Shown: in pieces, positions 34,197-47,861 of the stretch
How the letters are laid out: each line of letters starts with the position of its first letter
Position numbering within the stretch: the first letter of the stretch is position 1
DNA from: Nocardioides limicola
GTDB lineage: Bacteria; Actinomycetota; Actinomycetes; Propionibacteriales; Nocardioidaceae
DNA: 64,000 nucleotides
Reading direction: 5' to 3'
Assembly: GCF_016827675.1 (NCBI RefSeq)
Contig: NZ_JAERJA010000005.1
Location: 62,001 to 126,000, forward strand
Position numbers and translations under genes: made by a program
The notes under the pieces: model-generated
Databases searched by the model: none
What the model was told of the DNA's origin: nothing
The model's input: only the letters and a program-made list of their open reading frames with translations

Positions 34197-34583
34197 GAGG
34201 GAATCGTAGGCCTGTGAGCGGTTCGATGCCGGTCACAAGCCACTGCGGTGCAGGGTGGGCGCACGAAACTCCCGAATGACCTGCGGTCTCGACAGGCTCG
34301 ACCACCGGCGACTCCGAACACCTACAGCCACCTGTGGCCGACCGCCGAGGACCGGACGCGAGCAGCCGCGAGCGATCTGATGCGTGAGGCGCTCGGGTCA
34401 TTCACGCCAGGTGGCCACTCTTGAGGGACACCGCGATCAACCCGACGACCATCTGCTCCATTTCGCGGCGCCAGGCGACCGCCTTCTCGCCGCTCAGGCG
34501 CTTCCAGTCCAGTCGATGGGCAGGAGATGATTGGTGGACACAGACTTGCCGGTCGTGCACTCATCGAATGTTGAGCGTCACCG
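34197..34583. other. Gene-poor stretch with dispersed repeat and possible gene remnant
   Basis: This 387-base stretch holds one copy of the dispersed repeat (34285-34307). On the minus strand a 52-codon open frame from GTG 34560 to TGA 34402 reads partly like protein (AHRLDWKRLSGEKAVAWRRE, then MEQMVVGLIAVSLKSGHLA), but it has no ribosome-binding site or recognised homologue. Immediately after the antitoxin stop, GTG 34581 opens a frame VTLNIR that ends at once in TGA. Both may be relics of a lost gene. Confidence 0.4.
34285..34307. repeat. Dispersed short repeat, copy 1
   Basis: The core GGTCTCGACAGGCTCGACC is followed by ACCG. It contains TCGA at both ends, giving weak dyad symmetry. The flank CTGCG before it and GACTCCGA after it recur partly at the other copies (35116 and 41119). 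Confidence 0.8.
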
Positions 34584-35115: not shown

Positions 35116-35138
35116 GGTCTCGACAGGCTCGACCACCG
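35116..35138. repeat. Dispersed short repeat, copy 2
   Basis: The core GGTCTCGACAGGCTCGACC followed by ACCG is identical to copy 1. The upstream TGACCTGCG is shared with copy 1 apart from one added G. Copies 1 and 2 lie in the same orientation 831 bases apart and bracket the antitoxin-like genes. Confidence 0.8.
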
Positions 35139-35143
35139 ATGAA

Positions 35144-36088
35144 TCAGTAGTACCAGGGGTACGGCGACCAGTCGGGCTCGCGCTTCTCCAGGAACTGGTC
35201 GCGGCCCTCCTGGGCCTCGTCGGTCATGTAGGCGAGTCGGGTGGTCTCACCGGCGAAGAGTTGCTGGCCGACCAGGCCGTCGTCGAGGAGGTTGAAGGAG
35301 TACTTCAGCATCCGCTGCGCAGTCGGGGACTTGCCGTTGATCTTGCGGCCCCAGTCCAGGGCCACCTTCTCCAACCGCGCGTGCTCGACGACCCGGTTCA
35401 CCGCACCCATCGCGTGCATCTCGTCGGCGTCGTACTCCTCGGCGAGGAAGAAGATCTCGCGGGCGAACTTCTGGCCGACCATTTTGGCCAGGTACGCCGA
35501 CCCGTAGCCGCCGTCGAAAGAGCCCACGTCGGCGTCGGTCTGCTTGAACCGCGCGTGCTCCTTGCTGGCCAGGGTCAGGTCGCAGACCACGTGCAGCGAA
35601 TGGCCACCGCCGGCCGCCCAGCCCGGCACCACGCAGATGACCACCTTGGGCATGAACCGGATCAGCCGCTGGCACTCCAGGATGTGCAGCCGAGCCAACT
35701 TGGCCTTGTCGATCACCGACGGTTCCTCGGCGCCGGTGTCGCCGGCGCCGATCGTCTTGTCCTCGTACTGGTAGCCGGCCTTGCCGCGGATCCGCTGGTC
35801 ACCGCCGGTGCAGAACGCCCACTTGCCGTTCTTCGCGCTCGGCCCGTTCCCGGTCAGGATCACGCACCCCACGTCGGCCGACTGGCGCGCGTGCTCCAGG
35901 GTGCGCAGTAGTTCGTCAACCGTGTGCGGCCGGAAGGCGTTGAGGACGTCGGGTCGATCGAACGCGATCCGGACAGTGCCGTGCTCCTTCGCCCGGTGAT
36001 AGGTGAGGTCGGTCAGATCGGCGAAGCCGGGCACCTCGTCCCAGTCGGCCGGGTCGAAGATCTCGCTGACACCCGCAATGGCACTCAT
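35144..36088 (-). CDS. menB: 1,4-dihydroxy-2-naphthoyl-CoA synthase
   Basis: The 314-residue enzyme performs the ring closure of o-succinylbenzoyl-CoA in menaquinone synthesis. It is a crotonase-fold protein with TVRIAFDRPDVLNAFRPHTV, NGKWAFCTGGDQRIRG, VPGWAAGGGHSLHVVCDLTL and the C-terminal EKREPDWSPYPWYY that is diagnostic for MenB. ATG 36088 is chosen; the frame runs far upstream to 36583 only as an overlap with the opposite gene. It overlaps no other men gene, so the pathway genes are elsewhere. Confidence 0.95.
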   Translation of the reverse strand: MSAIAGVSEIFDPADWDEVPGFADLTDLTYHRAKEHGTVRIAFDRPDVLNAFRPHTVDELLRTLEHARQSADVGCVILTGNGPSAKNGKWAFCTGGDQRIRGKAGYQYEDKTIGAGDTGAEEPSVIDKAKLARLHILECQRLIRFMPKVVICVVPGWAAGGGHSLHVVCDLTLASKEHARFKQTDADVGSFDGGYGSAYLAKMVGQKFAREIFFLAEEYDADEMHAMGAVNRVVEHARLEKVALDWGRKINGKSPTAQRMLKYSFNLLDDGLVGQQLFAGETTRLAYMTDEAQEGRDQFLEKREPDWSPYPWYY

Positions 36089-36128
36089 GGAAGCGAAGGC
36101 TACCGATCCTCGCCCGTACCCTGATCCG

Positions 36129-37139
36129 GTGACCCTCACCAAGCAACTCCTCGACGCCCAGGTCGCCTGGATCCTCGACCAGGTCCTCGGCGACCGGCTC
36201 GCCGAGACCGTGGCCGCCGACGTCGACCGCGTGCTGGCCATCGCCGGCGATCTGCCGCTGGCCGACCTGGTGGACGTCGACCAGGTCGCTCCGGTGGTCC
36301 GACGACTGGTCGCCGGCGTCCCCAGCACGGTCGCTGCCGATGCGCTGGTCCGTCGTACCGTCGAGATCCTGTACGCCGGACCCGAGGAGCGGTTCTCCGC
36401 CGACCAGGTGCTGGCCCGCGACCAGGTCGAGGCACTCGTCGGCGAGGTGCTGCAGGGCAGCCGACTGGCAGAGAAGGCACTCGACGACCTGGCCCGGAGC
36501 CCGCTGATGGCCACCGTCGCCTCACGGTTCGTCGGCCGACTGGTCGGCGAGGTGCTCCAAGCCAACCGCGCGGTGGCCGACAAGGTGCCCGGGCTGGGTC
36601 AGTTGATGTCGTTCGGCACGTCGGCGGCCTCGATGGTGATGGGGGCGGCCGACAAGCAGTTCGAGGCGCTGATCGGCGGCGCCAGCGGCAAGGGCGCCAC
36701 CTTCGCGGCGCGCCGACTCAACAAGATCCTGCTGGAGACGCTGCAGGACCCGACCACCCGCGCCGCCGTGATGGAGGTGTGGGACATGTTCGCCGACAAG
36801 CCGCTGCCGCTGCCGAGTGAACACGTGGCCGAGGAGGACGTGCTGCGGTTCGCCGGCGTCCTGCACGAAGCGGTGGCCACCGCCGCCGCCTCCGGACCGG
36901 CCGGCGACCTGGTCGAGGCCCTGGTCGCCGGCTTCTTCCATGTGTACGGCGAGCATCCGCTGGCCACGCTGCTGGAGGAGTTGGAGGTGACCCGGGACGA
37001 TCTCATCGAGGACCTCACCGCCGTGGTGGGCACCACCGCTGCCGCGCTGCATCGGGCGGGCGTGCTCGAGGACGCGATCCGCAGCCGGTTGGCGCCGTTC
37101 TGGTCCTCCGACGAGGTAGCAGCCCTGCTGGAGAGGTGA
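36129..37139 (+). CDS. Hypothetical helical protein
   Basis: The 336-residue protein is acidic and helical throughout, with many Leu-Val-Ala heptads (LTKQLLDAQVAWILDQVLGD, VGRLVGEVLQANRAVADKVP, GATFAARRLNKILLETLQD). No signal peptide, clear membrane span or catalytic motif is seen; a Gly/Ala-rich segment near 165-185 is the only hydrophobic one. GTG 36129 is chosen; the frame upstream overlaps the menB start. It is divergent from menB across 40 bases. I do not recognise the family. Confidence 0.7.
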   Translation: MTLTKQLLDAQVAWILDQVLGDRLAETVAADVDRVLAIAGDLPLADLVDVDQVAPVVRRLVAGVPSTVAADALVRRTVEILYAGPEERFSADQVLARDQVEALVGEVLQGSRLAEKALDDLARSPLMATVASRFVGRLVGEVLQANRAVADKVPGLGQLMSFGTSAASMVMGAADKQFEALIGGASGKGATFAARRLNKILLETLQDPTTRAAVMEVWDMFADKPLPLPSEHVAEEDVLRFAGVLHEAVATAAASGPAGDLVEALVAGFFHVYGEHPLATLLEELEVTRDDLIEDLTAVVGTTAAALHRAGVLEDAIRSRLAPFWSSDEVAALLER

Positions 37140-37919: not shown

Positions 37920-38546
37920 ATGGACCTGTACGACGCGATCAACCGCCGCCGCGACACCCGCGCCGAGTTCACCGGGGAACCGGTCGACGAGGCGGTGCTG
38001 CGCCGCGTGTTCGGCGCCGCCCACGCCGCCCCCAGCGTCGGCATGAGTCAACCGTGGGACTTCGTGCTGGTGCGGGACCCGTCGACCCTGGACCGGTTCG
38101 CCGCGCACGTGGCCCAGGAGCGTGACGTCTTCGCCGCCTCGTTGAGCGGTGAGCGTGCCGAGACGTTCTCCCGGATCAAGATCGAGGGGATCCGGGAGTC
38201 CGGGCTCGGGGTGGTGGTCAGCTATGACGCGGGGCGCGGTGGCCCGGCGGTCCTCGGTCGGCACGCGATCGCCGACGCCGGCCTCTACTCGGTCTGCCTG
38301 GCCATCCAGAACCTGTGGCTGGCGGCGACCGCCGAGGGTCTGGGCGTGGGTTGGGTGAGCTTCTATCGGGAGGAGTTCCTGGCCGACCTCGTCGACCTGC
38401 CCGAGGGGGCCCGACCGGTGGCCTGGCTGTGCCTGGGTTCGGTGGCCAACCTGCCCGAGGTGCCGGACCTGGAACGGTTCGGCTGGCGTCACCGGTCCCC
38501 GTTGGACTCGGTGCTGCACCAGGAGCGCTACCGGACCGGCGACTGA
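37920..38546 (+). CDS. bluB: 5,6-dimethylbenzimidazole synthase
   Basis: The 208-residue protein is a nitroreductase-fold enzyme that converts reduced FMN to DMB, the lower ligand of vitamin B12. Key signatures are YDAINRRRDTRAEFTGEPVD, AAHAAPSVGMSQPWDFVLVR, AIADAGLYSVCLAIQNLWLA and EGLGVGWVSFYREEFL. No B12-riboswitch-like leader is visible in the 147 bases before it. Its last 19 bases overlap the end of the convergent recD. Confidence 0.88.
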   Translation: MDLYDAINRRRDTRAEFTGEPVDEAVLRRVFGAAHAAPSVGMSQPWDFVLVRDPSTLDRFAAHVAQERDVFAASLSGERAETFSRIKIEGIRESGLGVVVSYDAGRGGPAVLGRHAIADAGLYSVCLAIQNLWLAATAEGLGVGWVSFYREEFLADLVDLPEGARPVAWLCLGSVANLPEVPDLERFGWRHRSPLDSVLHQERYRTGD

Positions 38547-40291
38547 CCGGAGAGGCGGCCGGCCAGGCCGGTCGCGCGACTGGCCCGGGTGAGCACCGCT
38601 GCCCGGACCGCCTCCTCACTGCCGATGATCCGGACGTGGTGGCGGGCCCTGGTCAACGCGGTGTAGAAGAGTTCGCGGGTCAACAGCCGCGAGTCGGCCT
38701 CCGGCAGCAGCACGGTGATCTGATCGGCCTCGCTGCCCTGCGCCTTGTGAATGGTCAGCGCGTGCATCGTCTGCACGGCGTCGAGCCGCACCGGCGCGAA
38801 GTCGCGGGTCCGGTCGCCGCCCTCGATGTGGGCGCGCAGCCGGCTGCCGTGCTGCACCACGACCCCGGTTTCGCCGTTGTAGAGGTCCAGGGCCCGATCG
38901 TTGCGGGTGACCAGCAGCGGCCGACCTGGATACCAGACCCGGGCCATGTCCTCGCCGGTCTCCTCGGCCAGCCACTGCTCCACCTGGCTGTTCCAGCGCC
39001 GGACACCGTGCGGACCCTCCCGATGAGCGCAGAGCAGTCGGTGCCCCCGGAGGGCGGCCAGCGCGGAGTCGGCGTCGCCCTCGACTGCGGCGGCGTGCGC
39101 CGCTTCGGCGGCGGGCAGGCAGTCCGCGCGCACCGCCGCCTCGACGGCCGCCGGGTCGTCGGTCTCGACGAAGGTGATCTGGGTGGACGAGGTGCGCAAC
39201 CGGTCCAGGACCAAGTCCGGGTCGCCGCTGCGCAAGGCATCCGCCAACCCCTGGATGTCGCGGGTGGCTCGGAAGTTCTCGGTCAGCGCCAGCACCGGCG
39301 AGTCCGGTGTCCCGGCACAGCCGGCGACGATGTCGGCGAGCACCGCCCCCGCGCCCACCGAGGTCAACTGGTCCGGGTCGCCGACCAGCAGCAGCCTGGT
39401 GTCGGGCCGCAGTGCTTCGAGGAGTCGCGCCATCATCGTCAGGTCCACCATGGACGATTCGTCGACGACCACCAGGTCCGCTCCGAGCCTGTTGCCGCGG
39501 TGATGGGCGAACCGGGTCCGGTTGTCCGGGCGCCAGCCGAGCAGTCGATGCAGGGTGACCCCGGCCAGCGGGGACAGCAGACGCACAGCGGCACGGGTCT
39601 GGTCCGTGCTTGCGGCCAGCGCGAGCTCGCTGTTGACCGCCTCGGTGAGTCTGGCCGCCGCCTTGCCGGTCGGGGCGGCCAGCACCACCCGGAGCCGTTG
39701 CCCGGCGTGTTGGTCGGCCAGGAGCAGCAACATCCGCGCGACCGTCGTGGTCTTGCCGGTGCCGGGCCCCCCGGTGAGGACGACGGTACGCCGGGTGAGT
39801 GCCGCGAGGGCCGCCCGCTGCTGCTCGGGGCTGAAGTGGCCGTCGAGCGTGTCGGCCAGGGCCGTTGCCCGGGCCTGGTCGATGCCGTCGACGGCACCGA
39901 TCCGTGTGCTCAGCTGGTCGGCGACCTGCCTCTCCAGCAGGTGGTAGCGGTCCAGGTACACCAGGCCGGCCTCGACGTGCAGGATGCGGTCCCGGACCAG
40001 CGGTGACGTGGCTGGCGGCGGGTCTGGCGCAGCAGTCAGCCCTTCGGGCAGCCGGTCTGCGATGGTGGCCAGGTCCAGACAGACCGAGCCGTGCCGCACC
40101 GCCCGCACGGTCAGTGCGGTCACCAGCAGGGCCGCTTCGTCGGCCTCGCCGGCCAGTCGGCCGATCGTGCGGGCCACGTGCACGTCGCCGGCGGTCAGCA
40201 CACCGGCGGCGTTCCAGTCGGCCAGCGGGCCGGTGGCGGCGAGCGCCAGCCGGCGGTCGTAGGCGTCGTCGCCCTGCCAGAGCTCGGTCAT
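38528..40291 (-). CDS. recD: RecBCD helicase subunit RecD
   Basis: The 587-residue helicase has Walker A VVLTGGPGTGKTTTVARML near 165, Walker B LVVVDESSMVDL and the SF1B motifs MHALTIHKAQGSEADQITVL and LFYTALTRARHHVRII. As the fast 5'-3' motor of RecBCD it works with RecB and RecC on double-strand breaks. ATG 40291 overlaps the recB stop by ATGA; earlier in-frame ATGs lie in recB and are not used. It is the last gene of the recC-recB-recD operon. Confidence 0.93.
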   Translation of the reverse strand: MTELWQGDDAYDRRLALAATGPLADWNAAGVLTAGDVHVARTIGRLAGEADEAALLVTALTVRAVRHGSVCLDLATIADRLPEGLTAAPDPPPATSPLVRDRILHVEAGLVYLDRYHLLERQVADQLSTRIGAVDGIDQARATALADTLDGHFSPEQQRAALAALTRRTVVLTGGPGTGKTTTVARMLLLLADQHAGQRLRVVLAAPTGKAAARLTEAVNSELALAASTDQTRAAVRLLSPLAGVTLHRLLGWRPDNRTRFAHHRGNRLGADLVVVDESSMVDLTMMARLLEALRPDTRLLLVGDPDQLTSVGAGAVLADIVAGCAGTPDSPVLALTENFRATRDIQGLADALRSGDPDLVLDRLRTSSTQITFVETDDPAAVEAAVRADCLPAAEAAHAAAVEGDADSALAALRGHRLLCAHREGPHGVRRWNSQVEQWLAEETGEDMARVWYPGRPLLVTRNDRALDLYNGETGVVVQHGSRLRAHIEGGDRTRDFAPVRLDAVQTMHALTIHKAQGSEADQITVLLPEADSRLLTRELFYTALTRARHHVRIIGSEEAVRAAVLTRASRATGLAGRLSGQSPVR

Positions 40292-43200
40292 CGCAGGCTC
40301 CCGTCCAGCAGGTCGGAGACGGCCGCCACCAGCTCGATCGGTGGCTGCCACCCGAAGACACCGGCCGGCTGGCCGTCGTACCGGGGCGTGTCGGGGCCAC
40401 ACATGCCGCGCAGGTAGAGGTAGAGGACGCCACCGAGGTGCTGCTCGGGGCGGTAGCGGTCGGTCAGCCGCCACCGCAGGAACCGGTGCAGCACACAGGC
40501 GTAGAGCAGCGCCTGGAGTGGGTAGTCCGAGTGCGCCATCGCTTCCTCGAGGGCCTCGGGGCGATAGGCGTCCGCGGTCAGCGGCGAGTCGAGGTCGCCG
40601 AGCCAGTTGGTCTTGTAGTCGACCACCAGGTAGCGGGCGTCGTCACCGTGGCCGACCCGCATGGCCACGTCGATCGACCCGGTGAGGTAGCCGCGCAGCG
40701 GCTGCGCGGCCAACTCTCCGGTCAGCCGGTCGGCGTACCACCGGACCGGGTCGCCGGGAGGCAGGTGCTGGCGCAGCAGCGGCGCCAGGTCCCCCAGCGT
40801 GACCTCGGTGCCGTGATGGTGGTCGCCGCCGTCCAGGGGCACCTCGAACTCGACCTCGCAGAGTCGGTCACCGGTGCCGATGTCGCGCAGCGTGGCGTCA
40901 CCGGCCAGCGGGCCCAGCGGCGTGTCGCAGACCGCGACCAGCGCGTCGACCAGGGTGTCGGTGTCCAGGTCGACCGGCCACCAGAGCTGCTGGTCGAGGA
41001 TGTGGCGGCGTAGCTCTGCCGCCAGGTCGTCCGCCTGCGGGTCGGCGTGTTCGAGGACGGCGTGCACCAGGGAGCCGAAGGTGGCCCCGGAGGGCAGGTC
41101 GGCCATCGGGCTGAGGGGGGTCTCGACAGGCTCGACCGCCGAGGACTCCGACCCGACCGCCGAGGACTCCGACCCGACCGCCGAGGACTCCGGCTCGACC
41201 GCCGAGGACTGCGGCTCGACCACAGGAGATTCAATCAGCGGGGACTCGGGTTCACTGGTGACGCCAGGGGCCTCGTGGCCGACCCGGCTCAGCGCGGTGT
41301 ACGACGTACGTCGCCACCAGTGATCCACCCGGCGGGTGAAGCGTCGCAGCCGCAGCTCGGCCGGCGGCGGCTCTGCGGGGGGCCGACCGGCCGGGGCGTG
41401 CACCGCATGCTCGACGGCTATCCCCCACCGCCCGAACACCGCCGCGAGGTCGTTGTCGCCAGGCAGGTCGGCGATCTGGGCGACCTGGTCCGGCTGGCCG
41501 GGATCCCGCAGCAGCACCCGGTGCAGCGGAGAGGCGGCGGTGCTCTTCGCGGTCGGTGCCCACCAGCACACCACCTGGGACTGGGCCCGGGTCAGCGCGA
41601 CGTAGAGCAGCCGCAACCACTCCCCGTCGGACTCCTCCCGCCAGCGACGCAGGTGTTCGCGGCGTGCCGAGCCACTGTTGCCGCCGATGTCGAGGCACCG
41701 CTGGCCGTCCTCGTCGTGGAAGAGGGGCAGATCGGGTTGCGTGATGTACCGGTCCCACAGGGTCGGCAGATGGACGACCGGGTACTGCAGCCCCTTGCAG
41801 CCGTGGATGGTGACCAGTTGGACGGCCGCGGCGTCGGAGTCCAGTCGGCGGCTGCGTTCGTGCGCGTCGGCGGCGGTGTCGGCGACCCGCTCCCGCAGCC
41901 AGGCCAGCAGGCCCACCACGCCGCGACCCTCGGCGTGCCCGAGCTGGTGCAGCAGTTCACCGAGGTGCTCGAGGTCGGTCAGCGTGCGCTCCCCGCCGGT
42001 GCGGCCGAGCACCCGGGCCGGCAACCCACCCACCCGGGCCGCTTCGAGCACCGCGGCGCAGCCACCATCGGCGAGCAGCAGCGCCCACTCTCGCAGCGTC
42101 TCGGCGACCTGCTCGGTCAACTCGTCGCCGCGCTCGTCCAACTCGACCGCCGTGTGCCCGAAGAAGCTGGTCAGGGCCGCGGACCGGACCCGGGGGCTCC
42201 GGTGCGGTTGCTCGAGACCCTCCAGCAGCCGCACCCACTCCGAGGCGGCGGGCGTGTCGAAGACGCTGCCGCCGGACCTGACCGCGGCAATGCCGAGCGC
42301 GCGCAACTCCTGCTGGATCGCATCGAGCTCGGCGTGCTTGTGGGCGATCACCGCGACATCACTGGCGACCAGCGGCCGCCCGTCATAACTGGCGCCGGAG
42401 CCCAGCAGGCGGCTGATGTCCAGGGCGACGTCCCGGGCGATGTAGGCCCGCACCGGCGCGACGGGCGGGTTCTCCTGGGCGCCGGGCAGGTCGTCCCGTC
42501 GCAGGTACCGCAACCGGAACGGCGCGGACTCGGGAGCGCCGTGAAGGCGACTGCCGGGACGCTGGCTGCTCACCTCGGAGACCCGGATCCGGTCGTGGCC
42601 CAGCGGCAGGCCGCGCAACAGCCCCTGGAGACGGTCGACCAGCGGCGCGTCGCTGCGCCAGTTGCTGTCCAGGCTCTTCTGCGCGGTGACATGGGCGCTG
42701 ACCGACGCGGTCAGGTAGGTGTGCACGTCGCCGCCGCGGAACGCATAGATGGCCTGCTTGGGGTCACCGATCAGCACCATCGTCGCCTCACCACCGAAGG
42801 CCCGGTCGAGCACCTGCCACTGGTGGGGGTCGGTGTCCTGGAACTCGTCGACCAGGACGTACTGCCACCGATCCCGCATCCGCGTGGCCGCCGGGGCGTC
42901 GGGTTCGGCGAGGACGGCGGCCAGTTGGCTGAGCAGGTCGTCGTAGGTGAGGATCCCCTGGCGCCGTTTACGTCGTTCGACCTCGTCGCGGACCGCGAAC
43001 CCGAAGCGTGCCCGCAGCGCAGCGGCGGGGTCGGTCTCGGCGGCCGGGTCGGGCACCAGCCGGGCCAGCGGGTCCTTGATCACGCGGGTGGCGAGGGAGA
43101 GCGCGGTGGCGTGATCGAAGCCGTGCTGTTCGCTGCCGTCGGCGAAGCGACGAAGGTAGAAGTCGTCGACCACCTCCCGGACCAGGTCGTCGACCTCCTC

Positions 43201-43635
43201 GACCAGCACCGCGCGCGGGTCGCTGTCGCCGGCGACGCCGAGGGAGTCCAGGACCAGCGAGCAGAAGCCGTGGGTGGTGGTGATGGTGGCCGCGTCGAAG
43301 CGGGCCAGCGCGGCGGTGAGGCGAGCGAGTACGACGGTCCGGGTGTCCGGGTCGGCGTCGAGCAGCCAGTCGGTGAGCTCGGAGTCGGCGTCCCCGACGG
43401 CCTCCCCGGCGAGCAGGCTGCGCGCCTCCTCGAGCTGTTCGCGGACCCGGCTGCGCAGTTCCGAGGTGGCTGCGCGGCCGAAGGTGATCACCAGGATCCG
43501 CTCCAGGTCGACACCCTCGGCGACGTAGCGGGTCACCAGCGCGGCGATCGCCCACGTCTTGCCGGTGCCGGCGCTCGCCTCGAGGACCGTGGTGCCTCGG
43601 CCCGGCAGCGGGTCTGCGATCCGGAAGGTGGTCAC
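40288..43635 (-). CDS. recB: RecBCD helicase-nuclease subunit RecB
   Basis: The 1115-residue subunit has the UvrD-type helicase core: EASAGTGKTWAIAALVTRYV near 18, YVLVDEFQDTDPHQW near 265, QLVTIHGCKGLQYPVVHLPT and LYVALTRAQSQVVCWW. The C-terminal RecB nuclease domain has GSIDVAMRVGHGDDARYLVV followed by DYKT, and YPLQALLYACVLHRFL. GTG 43635 overlaps the recC stop by GTGA. The linker before the nuclease domain (about residues 790-840) holds a Ser/Ala/Val/Glu heptad tract encoded by a 21-bp tandem repeat; see the separate repeat entries. Confidence 0.93.
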   Translation of the reverse strand: MTTFRIADPLPGRGTTVLEASAGTGKTWAIAALVTRYVAEGVDLERILVITFGRAATSELRSRVREQLEEARSLLAGEAVGDADSELTDWLLDADPDTRTVVLARLTAALARFDAATITTTHGFCSLVLDSLGVAGDSDPRAVLVEEVDDLVREVVDDFYLRRFADGSEQHGFDHATALSLATRVIKDPLARLVPDPAAETDPAAALRARFGFAVRDEVERRKRRQGILTYDDLLSQLAAVLAEPDAPAATRMRDRWQYVLVDEFQDTDPHQWQVLDRAFGGEATMVLIGDPKQAIYAFRGGDVHTYLTASVSAHVTAQKSLDSNWRSDAPLVDRLQGLLRGLPLGHDRIRVSEVSSQRPGSRLHGAPESAPFRLRYLRRDDLPGAQENPPVAPVRAYIARDVALDISRLLGSGASYDGRPLVASDVAVIAHKHAELDAIQQELRALGIAAVRSGGSVFDTPAASEWVRLLEGLEQPHRSPRVRSAALTSFFGHTAVELDERGDELTEQVAETLREWALLLADGGCAAVLEAARVGGLPARVLGRTGGERTLTDLEHLGELLHQLGHAEGRGVVGLLAWLRERVADTAADAHERSRRLDSDAAAVQLVTIHGCKGLQYPVVHLPTLWDRYITQPDLPLFHDEDGQRCLDIGGNSGSARREHLRRWREESDGEWLRLLYVALTRAQSQVVCWWAPTAKSTAASPLHRVLLRDPGQPDQVAQIADLPGDNDLAAVFGRWGIAVEHAVHAPAGRPPAEPPPAELRLRRFTRRVDHWWRRTSYTALSRVGHEAPGVTSEPESPLIESPVVEPQSSAVEPESSAVGSESSAVGSESSAVEPVETPLSPMADLPSGATFGSLVHAVLEHADPQADDLAAELRRHILDQQLWWPVDLDTDTLVDALVAVCDTPLGPLAGDATLRDIGTGDRLCEVEFEVPLDGGDHHHGTEVTLGDLAPLLRQHLPPGDPVRWYADRLTGELAAQPLRGYLTGSIDVAMRVGHGDDARYLVVDYKTNWLGDLDSPLTADAYRPEALEEAMAHSDYPLQALLYACVLHRFLRWRLTDRYRPEQHLGGVLYLYLRGMCGPDTPRYDGQPAGVFGWQPPIELVAAVSDLLDGSLR
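41119..41141. repeat. Dispersed short repeat, copy 3, inside recB
   Basis: The core GGTCTCGACAGGCTCGACC is followed by GCCG, one base different from copies 1 and 2. Read in the recB frame it encodes VEPVETP. It is directly continuous with the 21-bp tandem repeats. Confidence 0.8.
41133..41216 (-). repeat. 21-bp tandem repeat (minisatellite) in the recB linker
   Basis: Four units of CGACCGCCGAGGACTCCGAC plus one base start at 41133, 41154, 41175 and 41196. The first two are identical; the third and fourth differ at the end (GGCT) and the fourth has one more change. A fifth, degenerate unit starts at 41217. The unit length keeps the recB frame and codes for heptads of the type SSAVEPE and SSAVGSE. 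Confidence 0.9.
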
Positions 43636-46600
43636 ATCGCCACCTCCCACTCCGAGGCCAGCAGCGGCGACCAGATCCGCTCGGCCGCGGCGGGCAGGGC
43701 CGCCGCAGCGGGCGTACGTCCGAGCAGCACGTCGACGTCGGCGCCCACCCCGAACGCGAGGGCGTGATAGGGGTCGGCGTCCTCCTTGGGGTAGCCGTTG
43801 AACCGGTCGGTCGTCCACTCCCGGGCGGCGGCCTGGCCGGCGGAGTCGCGATGGCGGCGGGCTCGTTCCGCCCAGGCGGCCCCGGTCTCGACGGGGCAGG
43901 CGACGGGCGTGGTCAATCCCAGGTCGCGCAGCGCGACCAGGTCGCGGAGGGTCTCGACGGGGTCGACGACATCGGCGCGCAGTCCCCGGGCGACGGCCAC
44001 CTTCGTGGCGGAGCGGCCGCCGGCCTTGCCGACGGCACAGCCGAGCCAGGCCGTGTCCGGTCGGCTGGCGGCCAACGCGAGCAGGTCGACCCACAGGCCC
44101 AACCGTTGCGCGGCCTTGACCCGTCCCCAGCGCATCGACAGCACCGTGACGTCGTGCACGCCGGCGACCGTGCCGATGAGGCGGCGGCCACCGCCGAGGT
44201 CCACGTCGACGTCGATGGTGGCCGGTTGGGCGCTGCGGAACCGCGCCGACGCCTGCCACAGTGCCTGACAGTCGCGCACCAGGGGCTCCAGGGTGGCTGC
44301 GGCCAACGCGCCCGGGGGCAGCGTGCCACGCAACTGCTCGAGGGTGAGCAGCGCGCCGGGCTCGCCGCCGGCCAGCAGCTCCGCAAGCAGCCGGTCGCCG
44401 ATCTGCCAGGTGGCGAGATGGTCCAACTCGATCGGGATCGCGTCGGGGAGTTCGTTGTGGGTCAACGGGGCACCGACGTCGAGCCGCTCCTTGAAGAACG
44501 TCCGAACCGGATGGGTGAGGAACGCCCTCAACTCCTCGACGGTGACGTCGGCAGCGGGCAGTGCGGTCAGTGGTGCGGCCAGCAGCTCCGGGGGCGGGGT
44601 CCGCTCGGCGGCCGCTGCGGCTGCGCCGTCGCGGGCCGCGGCGTCGAAACTCCGACCCGCGAAGTTGCGTCGGTCGTGGGCTTGCAGGGGGTGCCGGGTG
44701 AGCACTCGTCCGGCAACCGGGTCCGCGGTGGTTCGGTCCAGGGCGGCCAGGAGTTCGGCGAGGGGCACGGCGGGTGGACGCTCGGCGCCACTGCGCTCGT
44801 CGGCGCCGCTGTAGGTGACCACCAGGTGCTCGCGGGCGGCCAGGATCGCATCGAGCAGCAGTTGCCGGTCCTCGCCGCGCCTGTCGCGCTCTCCGGTCAT
44901 CGGCCGACGCAGCAGCACGTCATCACCGTCGGCGAGGGTGCCGCGCGGGAACACCTGATCGTCGAGGCCGAGCAGGCAGACCACCCGGTGCGGGATGGAC
45001 CGCATCGGGGTCAACGTCGCCACCGTGATCGCGCCGGTGCGGAAGTTGGCGCGGGTCGGCCGACCGGCCAGCCGCTGCTCGAGCATCGCTCGTACGTCGG
45101 GGAGGCTGAGCTCGGTGGGGGCGTTCTGCGCGGCTGCACCGATGCCGGCCAACTCCCGCTCCAGTTGCGGCAACTGCCAGGCGTCGGCGGCCGCGACCCG
45201 GGTGAGAGCGCGTACGCCGTCGCGCAACGCGGCGAGCCAGTCGGCGACGCTACGGGACTGGGCCAGCGCGGCCAGGCAGCGCTCCAGCCGGTCCAGGAAC
45301 TCGGCGAAGTCTCCGGCCAGGTCGAGTTCATCGCTGCCGATGTCATCGACCGGCACCGCCCGGCCCAGGGGCCGGCGTTCGTCGTCGCTGAGCGCTACCC
45401 CGGCGAGGATCCGTTCCAGCCCGGCGGCGAAGGTGTTGCCGCCGTACTGTCCCAGCCCGTACCTGGTCAGGGTCAGCTCCGCGGACAGCCCCCACCGGAC
45501 GGCGGCACGGTCCACCCAGTCGTGCAGGCGCTCCAGGCCGTCGTCGTCGAAGGAGAAGCGCATCCGGCACGGTGCGGCACCGGCCAGGTCGAGCACCTCG
45601 GCGGCGGTGGCCCGGCCGGCGGCCAGGGTCAGCAGGTGGCCAGCCACCGCCAGCAGCGGGTTGGTGGCGCGCAGCGACCGGTCGGCCAGACGCAACCGGA
45701 GGCGATGCCCGGGGTGCCCGGCCCACCCGTCGGTGTCGGCGGGCGCGAGGCCGAACGCGGACTGGATCAGCGGGGCGTAGCTCTCGATGTCGGGGCACAT
45801 CACCACGATGTCGCGGGGCTCCAGGTCGGGCTGGTCCTGCATCAGGCCGACCAGCACCTCGCGGAGCACCTCGACCTGGCGGGCCGGGCCGTGGCAGGCA
45901 TGCACCTGCACGGAACGGTCGTCCTCGGCCAGGTGTCGGTCGCCCCGCTCGGCGGGGGTGGGGGCGTGGTTGTCGCGCAGATCGTCCTGCAGCCAGCCCA
46001 GCAGCGTGGCCGGGGCCGGCGGACCGGCCAACGTCTCGGCGGTCGCGTCGGCCAGCAGCGGCGCCACCGCCCGGCGCAACTCCCGGGCGTCCCGACCCAG
46101 GGACGCGAGCAGCGGGTGACCGACCAGCTCGACGGAACGGTCCTGGTCGCGGGGCACCACGCTGTCGCCGAGTTGCCCCTGGGCCTCCCAGAGAGACCGG
46201 GAGACCTGGGGCAGCCACAGGTGCACCTCGCGGTGCGTGGCGAGTGCCTGCAGCAACTCCAGTTCGGTGACCGGGATCCGGGTGTGCCCGAAGAGGGAGA
46301 GCCGCTCGGGCAGGTCCAGCGACCCCGGCGCCTCCCGCAGCTGGTCCAGCACGCCGTGGTGGCGGACCTCGGGCGGGTCAGCTGGCACCACCTCCAGCAA
46401 CCGTCGCCACAGCTCCGCCTGCCAGGCCAGGTCGGGCGCCAGGTGGCCACCGGCGCCGTCGCTGTCCTGGCCGGCCCGCCAGTCGGCCAGCAGCCCGGGC
46501 CGCTGCACGGCGTACGACGCGAACCTGGTGGCCAGCCGGTGGGCGGTGGCCCAACGACGGGCCCGGCGCAGGTCCCGCTCGGTGTCGTCGCGCCCCTCGC

Positions 46601-46955
46601 CCAGGTGCCGGGCGAGCGGCCGGCACCAGTCGGCATCCAGGTGCGCGTCGATCGTGGCCAGCAGCGGCCACACCAGACGGTCCGGGTCCCACGGGTCATC
46701 GTCCTCGCTGCCGGTCACCATCGCGACCAGGGAGCGCGGGTTGAGGAACCGGACCCCGGCACAGACCCCGTCCCCGAGACCCGGTGCGGCGCCGAGACGG
46801 TGCGAGAGCCGCTGCGCCAGCCACCGCTCGACACCCCTGGTCGGCACCACCACCACCTCGGTGGCGAAGGGATCCGGCAGCGGGTCGCTCAGCAGCCGGG
46901 CAAGCCCGTCGGCCAGCACGTCGGTGCTGGGGGCGTGGTGCAGGTGAACGGGCAC
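43632..46955 (-). CDS. recC: RecBCD subunit RecC
   Basis: The 1107-residue subunit starts at GTG 46955 with VPVHLHHAPSTDVLADGLAR and has typical RecC stretches: VVVVPTRGVERWLAQRLSHR, RFLNPRSLVAMV, PDIESYAPLIQSAFGLAPAD and ITVATLTPMRSIPHRVVCLL with GLDDQVFPR. It recognises Chi and splits the duplex in the RecBCD enzyme. The frame continues upstream to 47663 only because of high GC. It is the first gene of the operon; the HNH gene is divergent. Confidence 0.92.
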   Translation of the reverse strand: MPVHLHHAPSTDVLADGLARLLSDPLPDPFATEVVVVPTRGVERWLAQRLSHRLGAAPGLGDGVCAGVRFLNPRSLVAMVTGSEDDDPWDPDRLVWPLLATIDAHLDADWCRPLARHLGEGRDDTERDLRRARRWATAHRLATRFASYAVQRPGLLADWRAGQDSDGAGGHLAPDLAWQAELWRRLLEVVPADPPEVRHHGVLDQLREAPGSLDLPERLSLFGHTRIPVTELELLQALATHREVHLWLPQVSRSLWEAQGQLGDSVVPRDQDRSVELVGHPLLASLGRDARELRRAVAPLLADATAETLAGPPAPATLLGWLQDDLRDNHAPTPAERGDRHLAEDDRSVQVHACHGPARQVEVLREVLVGLMQDQPDLEPRDIVVMCPDIESYAPLIQSAFGLAPADTDGWAGHPGHRLRLRLADRSLRATNPLLAVAGHLLTLAAGRATAAEVLDLAGAAPCRMRFSFDDDGLERLHDWVDRAAVRWGLSAELTLTRYGLGQYGGNTFAAGLERILAGVALSDDERRPLGRAVPVDDIGSDELDLAGDFAEFLDRLERCLAALAQSRSVADWLAALRDGVRALTRVAAADAWQLPQLERELAGIGAAAQNAPTELSLPDVRAMLEQRLAGRPTRANFRTGAITVATLTPMRSIPHRVVCLLGLDDQVFPRGTLADGDDVLLRRPMTGERDRRGEDRQLLLDAILAAREHLVVTYSGADERSGAERPPAVPLAELLAALDRTTADPVAGRVLTRHPLQAHDRRNFAGRSFDAAARDGAAAAAAERTPPPELLAAPLTALPAADVTVEELRAFLTHPVRTFFKERLDVGAPLTHNELPDAIPIELDHLATWQIGDRLLAELLAGGEPGALLTLEQLRGTLPPGALAAATLEPLVRDCQALWQASARFRSAQPATIDVDVDLGGGRRLIGTVAGVHDVTVLSMRWGRVKAAQRLGLWVDLLALAASRPDTAWLGCAVGKAGGRSATKVAVARGLRADVVDPVETLRDLVALRDLGLTTPVACPVETGAAWAERARRHRDSAGQAAAREWTTDRFNGYPKEDADPYHALAFGVGADVDVLLGRTPAAAALPAAAERIWSPLLASEWEVAM

Positions 46956-47087
46956 GGCGGACAGCCTGCCATGGAGCACCGACGAAGTGGCCGGGCCGAT
47001 GCGGTGGTTCCGCGTCGGCATGCCTACTCTTGCCAACGAGAGTTCAACGCACGTCACGTCTCCTCGAAGCGGCCGGAGGTGATTGCG

Positions 47088-47552
47088 GTGACCGCCACCC
47101 AGGTGACCTTGCTGAACGCCTCCTATGAGCACCACGACGTGGTGTCGTTCAAGCACGCGGTCCGGATGCTCTTCCGCGGCGTCGCCACCGTCGAGGAGTC
47201 GGTGGCGGACAAGATGATCGGCCCGCATCCGTGGCCGAAGGTGATCCGGCTGGTCCGGTACGTCTCCCAGCGATGGCTGCACCGGCCGGCGGGCTGGTCG
47301 AGGCGCGGCATCCTGATCCGCGACGGCGGCACCTGCGGCTACTGCGGAGCCCCCGCCACCACCATCGACCACCTGCTGCCCGCCTCCCGCGGCGGGCCGT
47401 GGTCGTGGGAGAACTGTGTCGCCGCCTGCCGGCACTGCAACGAACGCAAGGGCAACCGGACCCCCGAGGAAGCCGGGATGCGGCTCAAGGCGCCGGCGTA
47501 CCACCCGACCAAGGCGCGACTGATCACCCTGCAGGCGGCCGCCGCCGGGTGA
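47088..47552 (+). CDS. HNH endonuclease
   Basis: The 154-residue protein has the actinobacterial HNH layout: N-terminal LLNASYEHHDVVSFKHAVRM, a central domain VIRLVRYVSQ, then the zinc-type HNH core RRGILIRDGGTCGYCGAPAT, TIDHLLPASRGGPWSWENC and ACRHCNERKGNRTPEEAG. GTG 47088 has GGAGG eight bases before it; GTG 47079 is in frame but too close to it. These proteins are common and their DNA targets are unknown. It is divergent from recC across 132 bases. Confidence 0.88.
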   Translation: MTATQVTLLNASYEHHDVVSFKHAVRMLFRGVATVEESVADKMIGPHPWPKVIRLVRYVSQRWLHRPAGWSRRGILIRDGGTCGYCGAPATTIDHLLPASRGGPWSWENCVAACRHCNERKGNRTPEEAGMRLKAPAYHPTKARLITLQAAAAG

Positions 47553-47564
47553 GGCGGAAATAGA

Positions 47565-47606
47565 GAACGGCTCCGCGTCGACGGGGGAGGCGACACGGAG
47601 CCGTTC
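47565..47606 (+). terminator. Hairpin 1 after the HNH gene
   Basis: GAACGGCTCCG (47565-47575) pairs perfectly with 47596-47606 around a 20-base loop, 13 bases after the HNH stop. Confidence 0.7.
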
Positions 47607-47612
47607 ATAAGA

Positions 47613-47644
47613 GCTTCGCCGGTGTCTCGGGTCACCGGCGAAGC
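47613..47644 (+). terminator. Hairpin 2 after the HNH gene
   Basis: GCTTCGCCGGTG (47613-47624) pairs perfectly with 47633-47644 around an 8-base loop. The two hairpins in tandem make a strong transcription barrier. Confidence 0.7.
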
Positions 47645-47861
47645 AAGACCCATCCTGCCCCACGAGTCACCGGCTTGTCACGTTGTCGTCACAGAAAGTT
47701 CGCGAATCCTTCGTCAGAGGGGGCGTTGGTCCCGTCTCGGGCGGGCCATCCGGTCCGGCTGCTCGGCGGCCTGAGGCCACTAGGCAGTTTCTCCTCATGG
47801 CGGCCACCGCCCGGCCGCCCCTAGCGTGCGTGCCCGCGACACCCATCCTGAGGAGCACGCA

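Follow-up and report, generated by a model that had tools for sequence, protein, structure and literature searches.

The recB gene of Nocardioides limicola carries a short repeat that also occurs elsewhere in the genome, followed directly by a 21-bp tandem array. This raises the question of how such a sequence came to lie in frame within a subunit of RecBCD. The gene was identified in a 64,000-nucleotide stretch of the genome (the window), where it lies on the minus strand (40288..43635). The likely start, from alignment with relatives, is a GTG at 43635, giving a protein of 1,115 aa. Pfam matches include UvrD helicase and UvrD_C domains and a C-terminal PD-(D/E)XK nuclease (PDDEXK_1). The neighboring minus-strand genes, taken as longest ORFs, are recC (43632..47663; Exonuc_V_gamma, 1.5e-65, and RecC_C, 4e-49) and recD (38528..40474; RecD_N, AAA_19, SH3_13, and UvrD_C_2). 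Because recC and recD flank a gene with both the UvrD helicase and PDDEXK_1 domains, we assign it as the recB of RecBCD, which bears out the host gene named in the initial annotation. The best named matches of the protein are from Nocardioides. Within the genus, identity to the nearest RecB reaches only ~60%, and the protein from this genome (G000) sits without a close relative on a long end branch (0.65) of the RecB tree.

The repeat has two parts. The head is a 19-mer, GGTCTCGACAGGCTCGACC, at 41119..41137 on the plus strand, and it encodes VEPVET on the minus strand near the conserved SPMADLP. It is followed by the element end GCCGA (41138..41142), which agrees with the family consensus RNCG(A) derived from 21 copies in this genome. 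The same nucleotides open the tail, four in-frame 21-bp units at 41138..41221 on the plus strand (GCCGAGGACTCCGACCCGACC twice, GCCGAGGACTCCGGCTCGACC, and GCCGAGGACTGCGGCTCGACC) that encode heptads of the form SSAVxxE. TRF reports the array at 41133-41221, with period 21, 4.2 copies, and 95% matches. The frame stays open throughout, with the peptide ...VVEPQ(SSAVEPE)(SSAVGSE)(SSAVGSE)SSAVEPVETPLSPM within the linker SEPESPLIESPVVEPQ SSAVEPE SSAVGSE SSAVGSE SSAVEPVETPLSPMADLP. What is left of the linker, as far as SEPE (41222..41260, plus-strand coordinates), is nonrepetitive or decayed. The 19-mer position, the TRF result, and the open frame together confirm the original description of a repeat in the recB linker with an in-frame 21-bp minisatellite.

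The 19-mer is dispersed, as had been proposed pending a genome-wide count. In this genome (3.72 Mb, 24 contigs) we identified 10 exact copies, with totals of 25 at one mismatch or fewer and 33 at two or fewer; the reversed 19-mer gave no matches. Two further exact copies are in the window, both on the plus strand. One (34285..34303) is within no open frame of at least 120 aa, and the other (35116..35134) is followed by ACCGA and lies just outside an ECH_1 ORF (35144-36583, minus strand). The shuffle expectation for the window is 0.12 matches at up to three mismatches. Copies in this genome end in the consensus CTCGACC plus RNCG(A): of 21 copies, all have C at +3 and G at +4 and 16 have A at +5, with no flank consensus past RNCGA. 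The downstream flank had been said to resemble that of another copy in the window. This holds for RNCG(A), which is common to the copies, but the longer match at 34304 (GACTCCGA) does not extend to the family.

Related forms are widespread in the genus. GGTCTCGACANGCTCGACC occurs exactly in 110 of 215 genomes, at 0 to 346 copies, with no match to the reversed control in any of them. A longer form, GGTGGTYGAG-N8-38-TCGARACC, was found in 193 of the 215, at up to 436 copies, and its controls were also zero. The 346 exact short elements are in one 4.9-Mb genome (G063) and are partly clustered. Folding predicts bulged hairpins for the long forms (z -1.1 to -4.5). With z about 0, the 19-mer by itself folds no better than shuffles and is therefore a weak palindrome. 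A REP-like palindromic superfamily, with ends GGTYTCGA...TCRACC followed by RNCGA, includes the 19-mer as its short form. Separately, three similar loci that are probably lipoprotein paralogues (L014, L017, and L021) have a common GGCCTCGACAGGCTCGACC copy (VEPVEA) in an apparent linker after the lipobox.

The tail of recB has counterparts at other loci, both in this genome and in others. Another TCGAYC occurs within 60 bp downstream of 17 of 47 short elements, versus 4 of 47 upstream. Tail units end in TCGACC and have lengths of 12, 14, 18, 19, 20, 21, or 30 bp, depending on the locus, mostly on the same side of the element. The recB array is one case of these locus-specific tails, which may arise by slippage between the TCGAC/TCGACC of the element and nearby copies of that motif. 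The initial annotation had the tail of the element amplified to four units. Local tandem amplification stands, but the tail shares only the terminal CTCGACC-RNCGA with the element; most of the unit is local sequence, particular to the locus. Other tails were seen in coding sequence. In two distant species (L015 and L279) the element precedes a biotin carboxylase domain and has its own 18-bp in-frame tail in each. A gene for a FAD-binding protein (L025:395-1858) contains the element, together with 18-bp tail units in frame (GEGDST repeats), well away from the N-terminus.

We compared 133 recB linkers from the genus; 20 further recB loci that the linker pattern did not parse were excluded. Matches to the end motif GGTYTCGA/TCGARACC number 19 in the 19.4 kb of linker sequence and 5 in the 118.8 kb of adjoining recB. 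The densities are 0.98/kb and 0.042/kb, with a Poisson p of 8e-20 that is indicative only, because the motif was picked after the first examples and at least five of the 19 matches are coincidental VET codons. Shuffled linkers had a mean of 2.96 and a maximum of 9 motifs, versus the 19 observed. By eye, 11 of the 133 linkers contain a whole in-frame element (G000, G055, G026, G029, G155, G061, G205, G141, G157, G003, and G006), and these vary in type, length (up to 81 bp), orientation, and frame. The sister genomes G141 and G157 (branch support 98) have a short and a long element at one spot. In G003 the linker exceeds those of near relatives by 27 aa, exactly the length of the 81-bp element that it holds. 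A RecB tree from which the linker was left out requires 10 changes, of which at least eight are forced by supported branches; the forced eight count gains and losses alike, as some changes may be losses, but because the element types are so varied, separate gains are likely. The RecB hinge is likely a recurrent, tolerated landing site, reached by related repeats on at least eight separate occasions within the genus, a recurrence that the initial annotation did not mention. Insertion in frame into the helicase-nuclease linker, as first suggested for this gene, remains the best reading and is in keeping with recurrent occupation of that linker.

The linker appears suited to such inserts. An AlphaFold2 model based on 27 sequences places residues 755-836 (41128..41373, minus strand) below a pLDDT of 50, with values of 28-35 over most of the region and well-predicted adjoining domains. 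The E. coli RecB linker (residues 870-940) occupies the same position between the helicase and nuclease domains. It contains a nuclease-blocking helix (PMC5030088), and the length and flexibility of the tether must suffice for Chi control (PMC7644769). By comparison, the G000 linker has predicted disorder, a mobile repeat, and tandem heptads, and no blocking helix was predicted in its AlphaFold2 model. At 59 aa it is within the range of the 133-linker set, in which the longest has 73 aa. Two nearly invariant columns that are acidic in the linkers of relatives (KDDE; D803/E804) are replaced in G000 RecB (window 41224-41229).

We consider it probable that a REP-like repeat inserted in frame into the tolerant, disordered RecB linker and that its terminal part was then tandemly amplified. 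A repeat of the superfamily would spread within genomes, and one copy would enter the helicase-nuclease linker of recB in frame. The insert would be tolerated, and nearly neutral, because the linker would require length and flexibility and not a particular sequence. The terminal TCGACC-RNCGA and adjacent linker DNA would then be duplicated by slippage, yielding four in-frame 21-bp units. For this recB the insertion is argued by analogy, because the nearest RecB is so divergent and the gene's own empty site is unseen. Given that the tail units lack the head, the tail could predate it. The weak palindrome of the 19-mer and a linker length of 59 aa, short of the 73-aa maximum, also weigh against this reading.

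An alternative is that the linker is an active target, via preferential insertion or recombination, or that an occupied linker alters RecBCD activity to the benefit of element or host. The occupation of the linker at least eight independent times in one genus and the turnover between sister species are consistent with this, as are published REPs that recur near one site of Xanthomonas recB or lie in other DNA-repair genes (PMC3733652) and the bearing of tether length and flexibility on Chi control in E. coli (PMC7644769). However, many unrelated proteins also contain the element in frame or have it at the N-terminus. A long disordered linker offers a large and tolerant target, and survivorship then explains the recurrence. 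We regard active targeting as unlikely. In a broader form of the idea, which we judge quite improbable, RecB linkers would be preferred landing sites of palindromic repeats across unrelated bacteria. There the element or its mobilizing enzyme, possibly a DUF222-HNH nuclease, would meet RecBCD-processed ends, and occupancy would tune RecBCD. If so, element turnover would act as a switch on recombination.

Very improbable, in our assessment, is that an acidic, serine-rich low-complexity linker grew by codon slippage and that its match to the 19-mer is a coincidence of codon usage (VET = GTC GAG ACC). Five of the 19 linker motif matches are indeed plain VET-codon coincidences (L181, L187, L190, L377, and L388), which puts the background above zero. 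Against this reading, the 19-mer is exact, with 10 genome copies and none in the reversed control, and ten other recB linkers contain elements in other frames and both orientations, up to 81 bp long. The periodicity score of the G000 linker is 59, versus a maximum of 12 in codon-shuffled linkers. The next highest score among the 133 is 17, and G000 has the one clear tandem array. Relatives with the same heptads and no dispersed repeat, which would have spoken against an inserted element, were sought in the same 133 linkers, and the heptads occurred only in G000.

The RecB linker is one of several protein contexts for this element. We identified it in frame in an M13 peptidase, MazG, a protein with two tetrapyrrole methylase stretches, PanC, and, with in-frame tail units, a FAD-binding protein. 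NuoD and RimM have it in frame at the N-terminus, and it also lies in frame before biotin carboxylase; at N-terminal positions the element could in fact precede the true start. Certain positions recur: the M13 peptidase of G000 and G054, the biotin carboxylase of G000 and G028, and the NuoD N-terminus of two species. The searches behind these pairs demanded near-exact matches and are biased accordingly; the shared positions in distant species may reflect common ancestry or repeated insertion. They are what favors the extremely doubtful reading of the short element as an ancient, vertically inherited linker module conserved for protein function, against which the recB elements differ in kind, frame, and strand, only two of about 20 parsed M13 peptidase loops carry the element, copies are found outside genes too, and the shared positions stem from a search needing near-exact matches.

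Comparable behavior is known from other repeat families. Rickettsia palindromic elements (RPE) are selfish palindromes found in frame in unrelated protein genes (PMC10969869). Compared by description, they share this mode of insertion with the Nocardioides elements but are about 150 bp long, versus 19-81 bp in this high-GC actinobacterial genus. Proteobacterial REPs (GTAG and CGTC super-families) are also short dispersed palindromes, sometimes within ORFs and often in DNA-repair genes; X. campestris and X. oryzae recB contain different REPs at about the same site (PMC3733652). As in the GTAG super-family, the Nocardioides elements are short palindromes in many dispersed copies (the 19-mer itself being at z about 0). 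As in the CGTC super-family and RPE, in-frame copies occur within ORFs and no dedicated transposase was found, a lack also described for CGTC REPs (PMC3733652). In contrast to these REPs, the elements end in RNCGA, their flank consensus lacks both the GTAG tag and the CGTC tag (CGTC super-family / RPE-4, RPE-6), they have no RAYT, and their tails are locus-specific minisatellites. Because the tags and RAYT are absent, we do not file them under the GTAG or CGTC families, alike as the behavior is. A text search of PMC3733652 for Nocardioides, Actinobacteria, Mycobacterium, and Arthrobacter found no mention. A literature search by repeat sequence turned up no paper on the short form, and matches to longer strings seemed unrelated, judged from titles and abstracts.

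Thus in-frame palindromes were already known from Rickettsia (RPE) and from proteobacterial REPs, including REPs near one site of Xanthomonas recB. What is new is the family itself, the minisatellite tails that it carries, and how many times one linker has been hit independently within one genus. The 11 in-frame inserts, varied in length and sequence, are in effect a series of natural mutants of the RecB tether and bear on how length and flexibility govern nuclease control in RecBCD. More broadly, this is a REP-like family widespread in an actinobacterial genus, without the usual RAYT transposase and with locus-specific minisatellites of its own seeding.

Candidate partners and functions were also considered. 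RAYT (Y1_Tnp) was rejected as a partner, with no match in G000 and one genome with a match among the 215. DUF222-HNH proteins are present in 211 of the 215 genomes, and their counts, which are minimum values, do not track short-element copy number; G029 has 76 short elements versus one weak DUF222 match, and this partner is not supported for the short form. A Chi-like oriented signal was set aside, as most genomes have the element on both strands in about equal numbers.

One DUF222 and HNH gene of G000 (L224:2034-3428) contains a long palindromic element and lies between inverted arrays of 24-bp units ending CTCGACCACCGA (L224:1721-3805; contig C1, about 131220-133300). Inverted arrays about 1.6-1.8 kb apart also occur at C2:136690-138339 and C21:132684-134977. 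The genome has 78 TCGACCACCGA array pairs, versus none for the reversed control. Some TCGACCACCGA arrays are near contig ends (the starts of C2, C4, C5, and C11 and the end of C16), and so may have broken the assembly.
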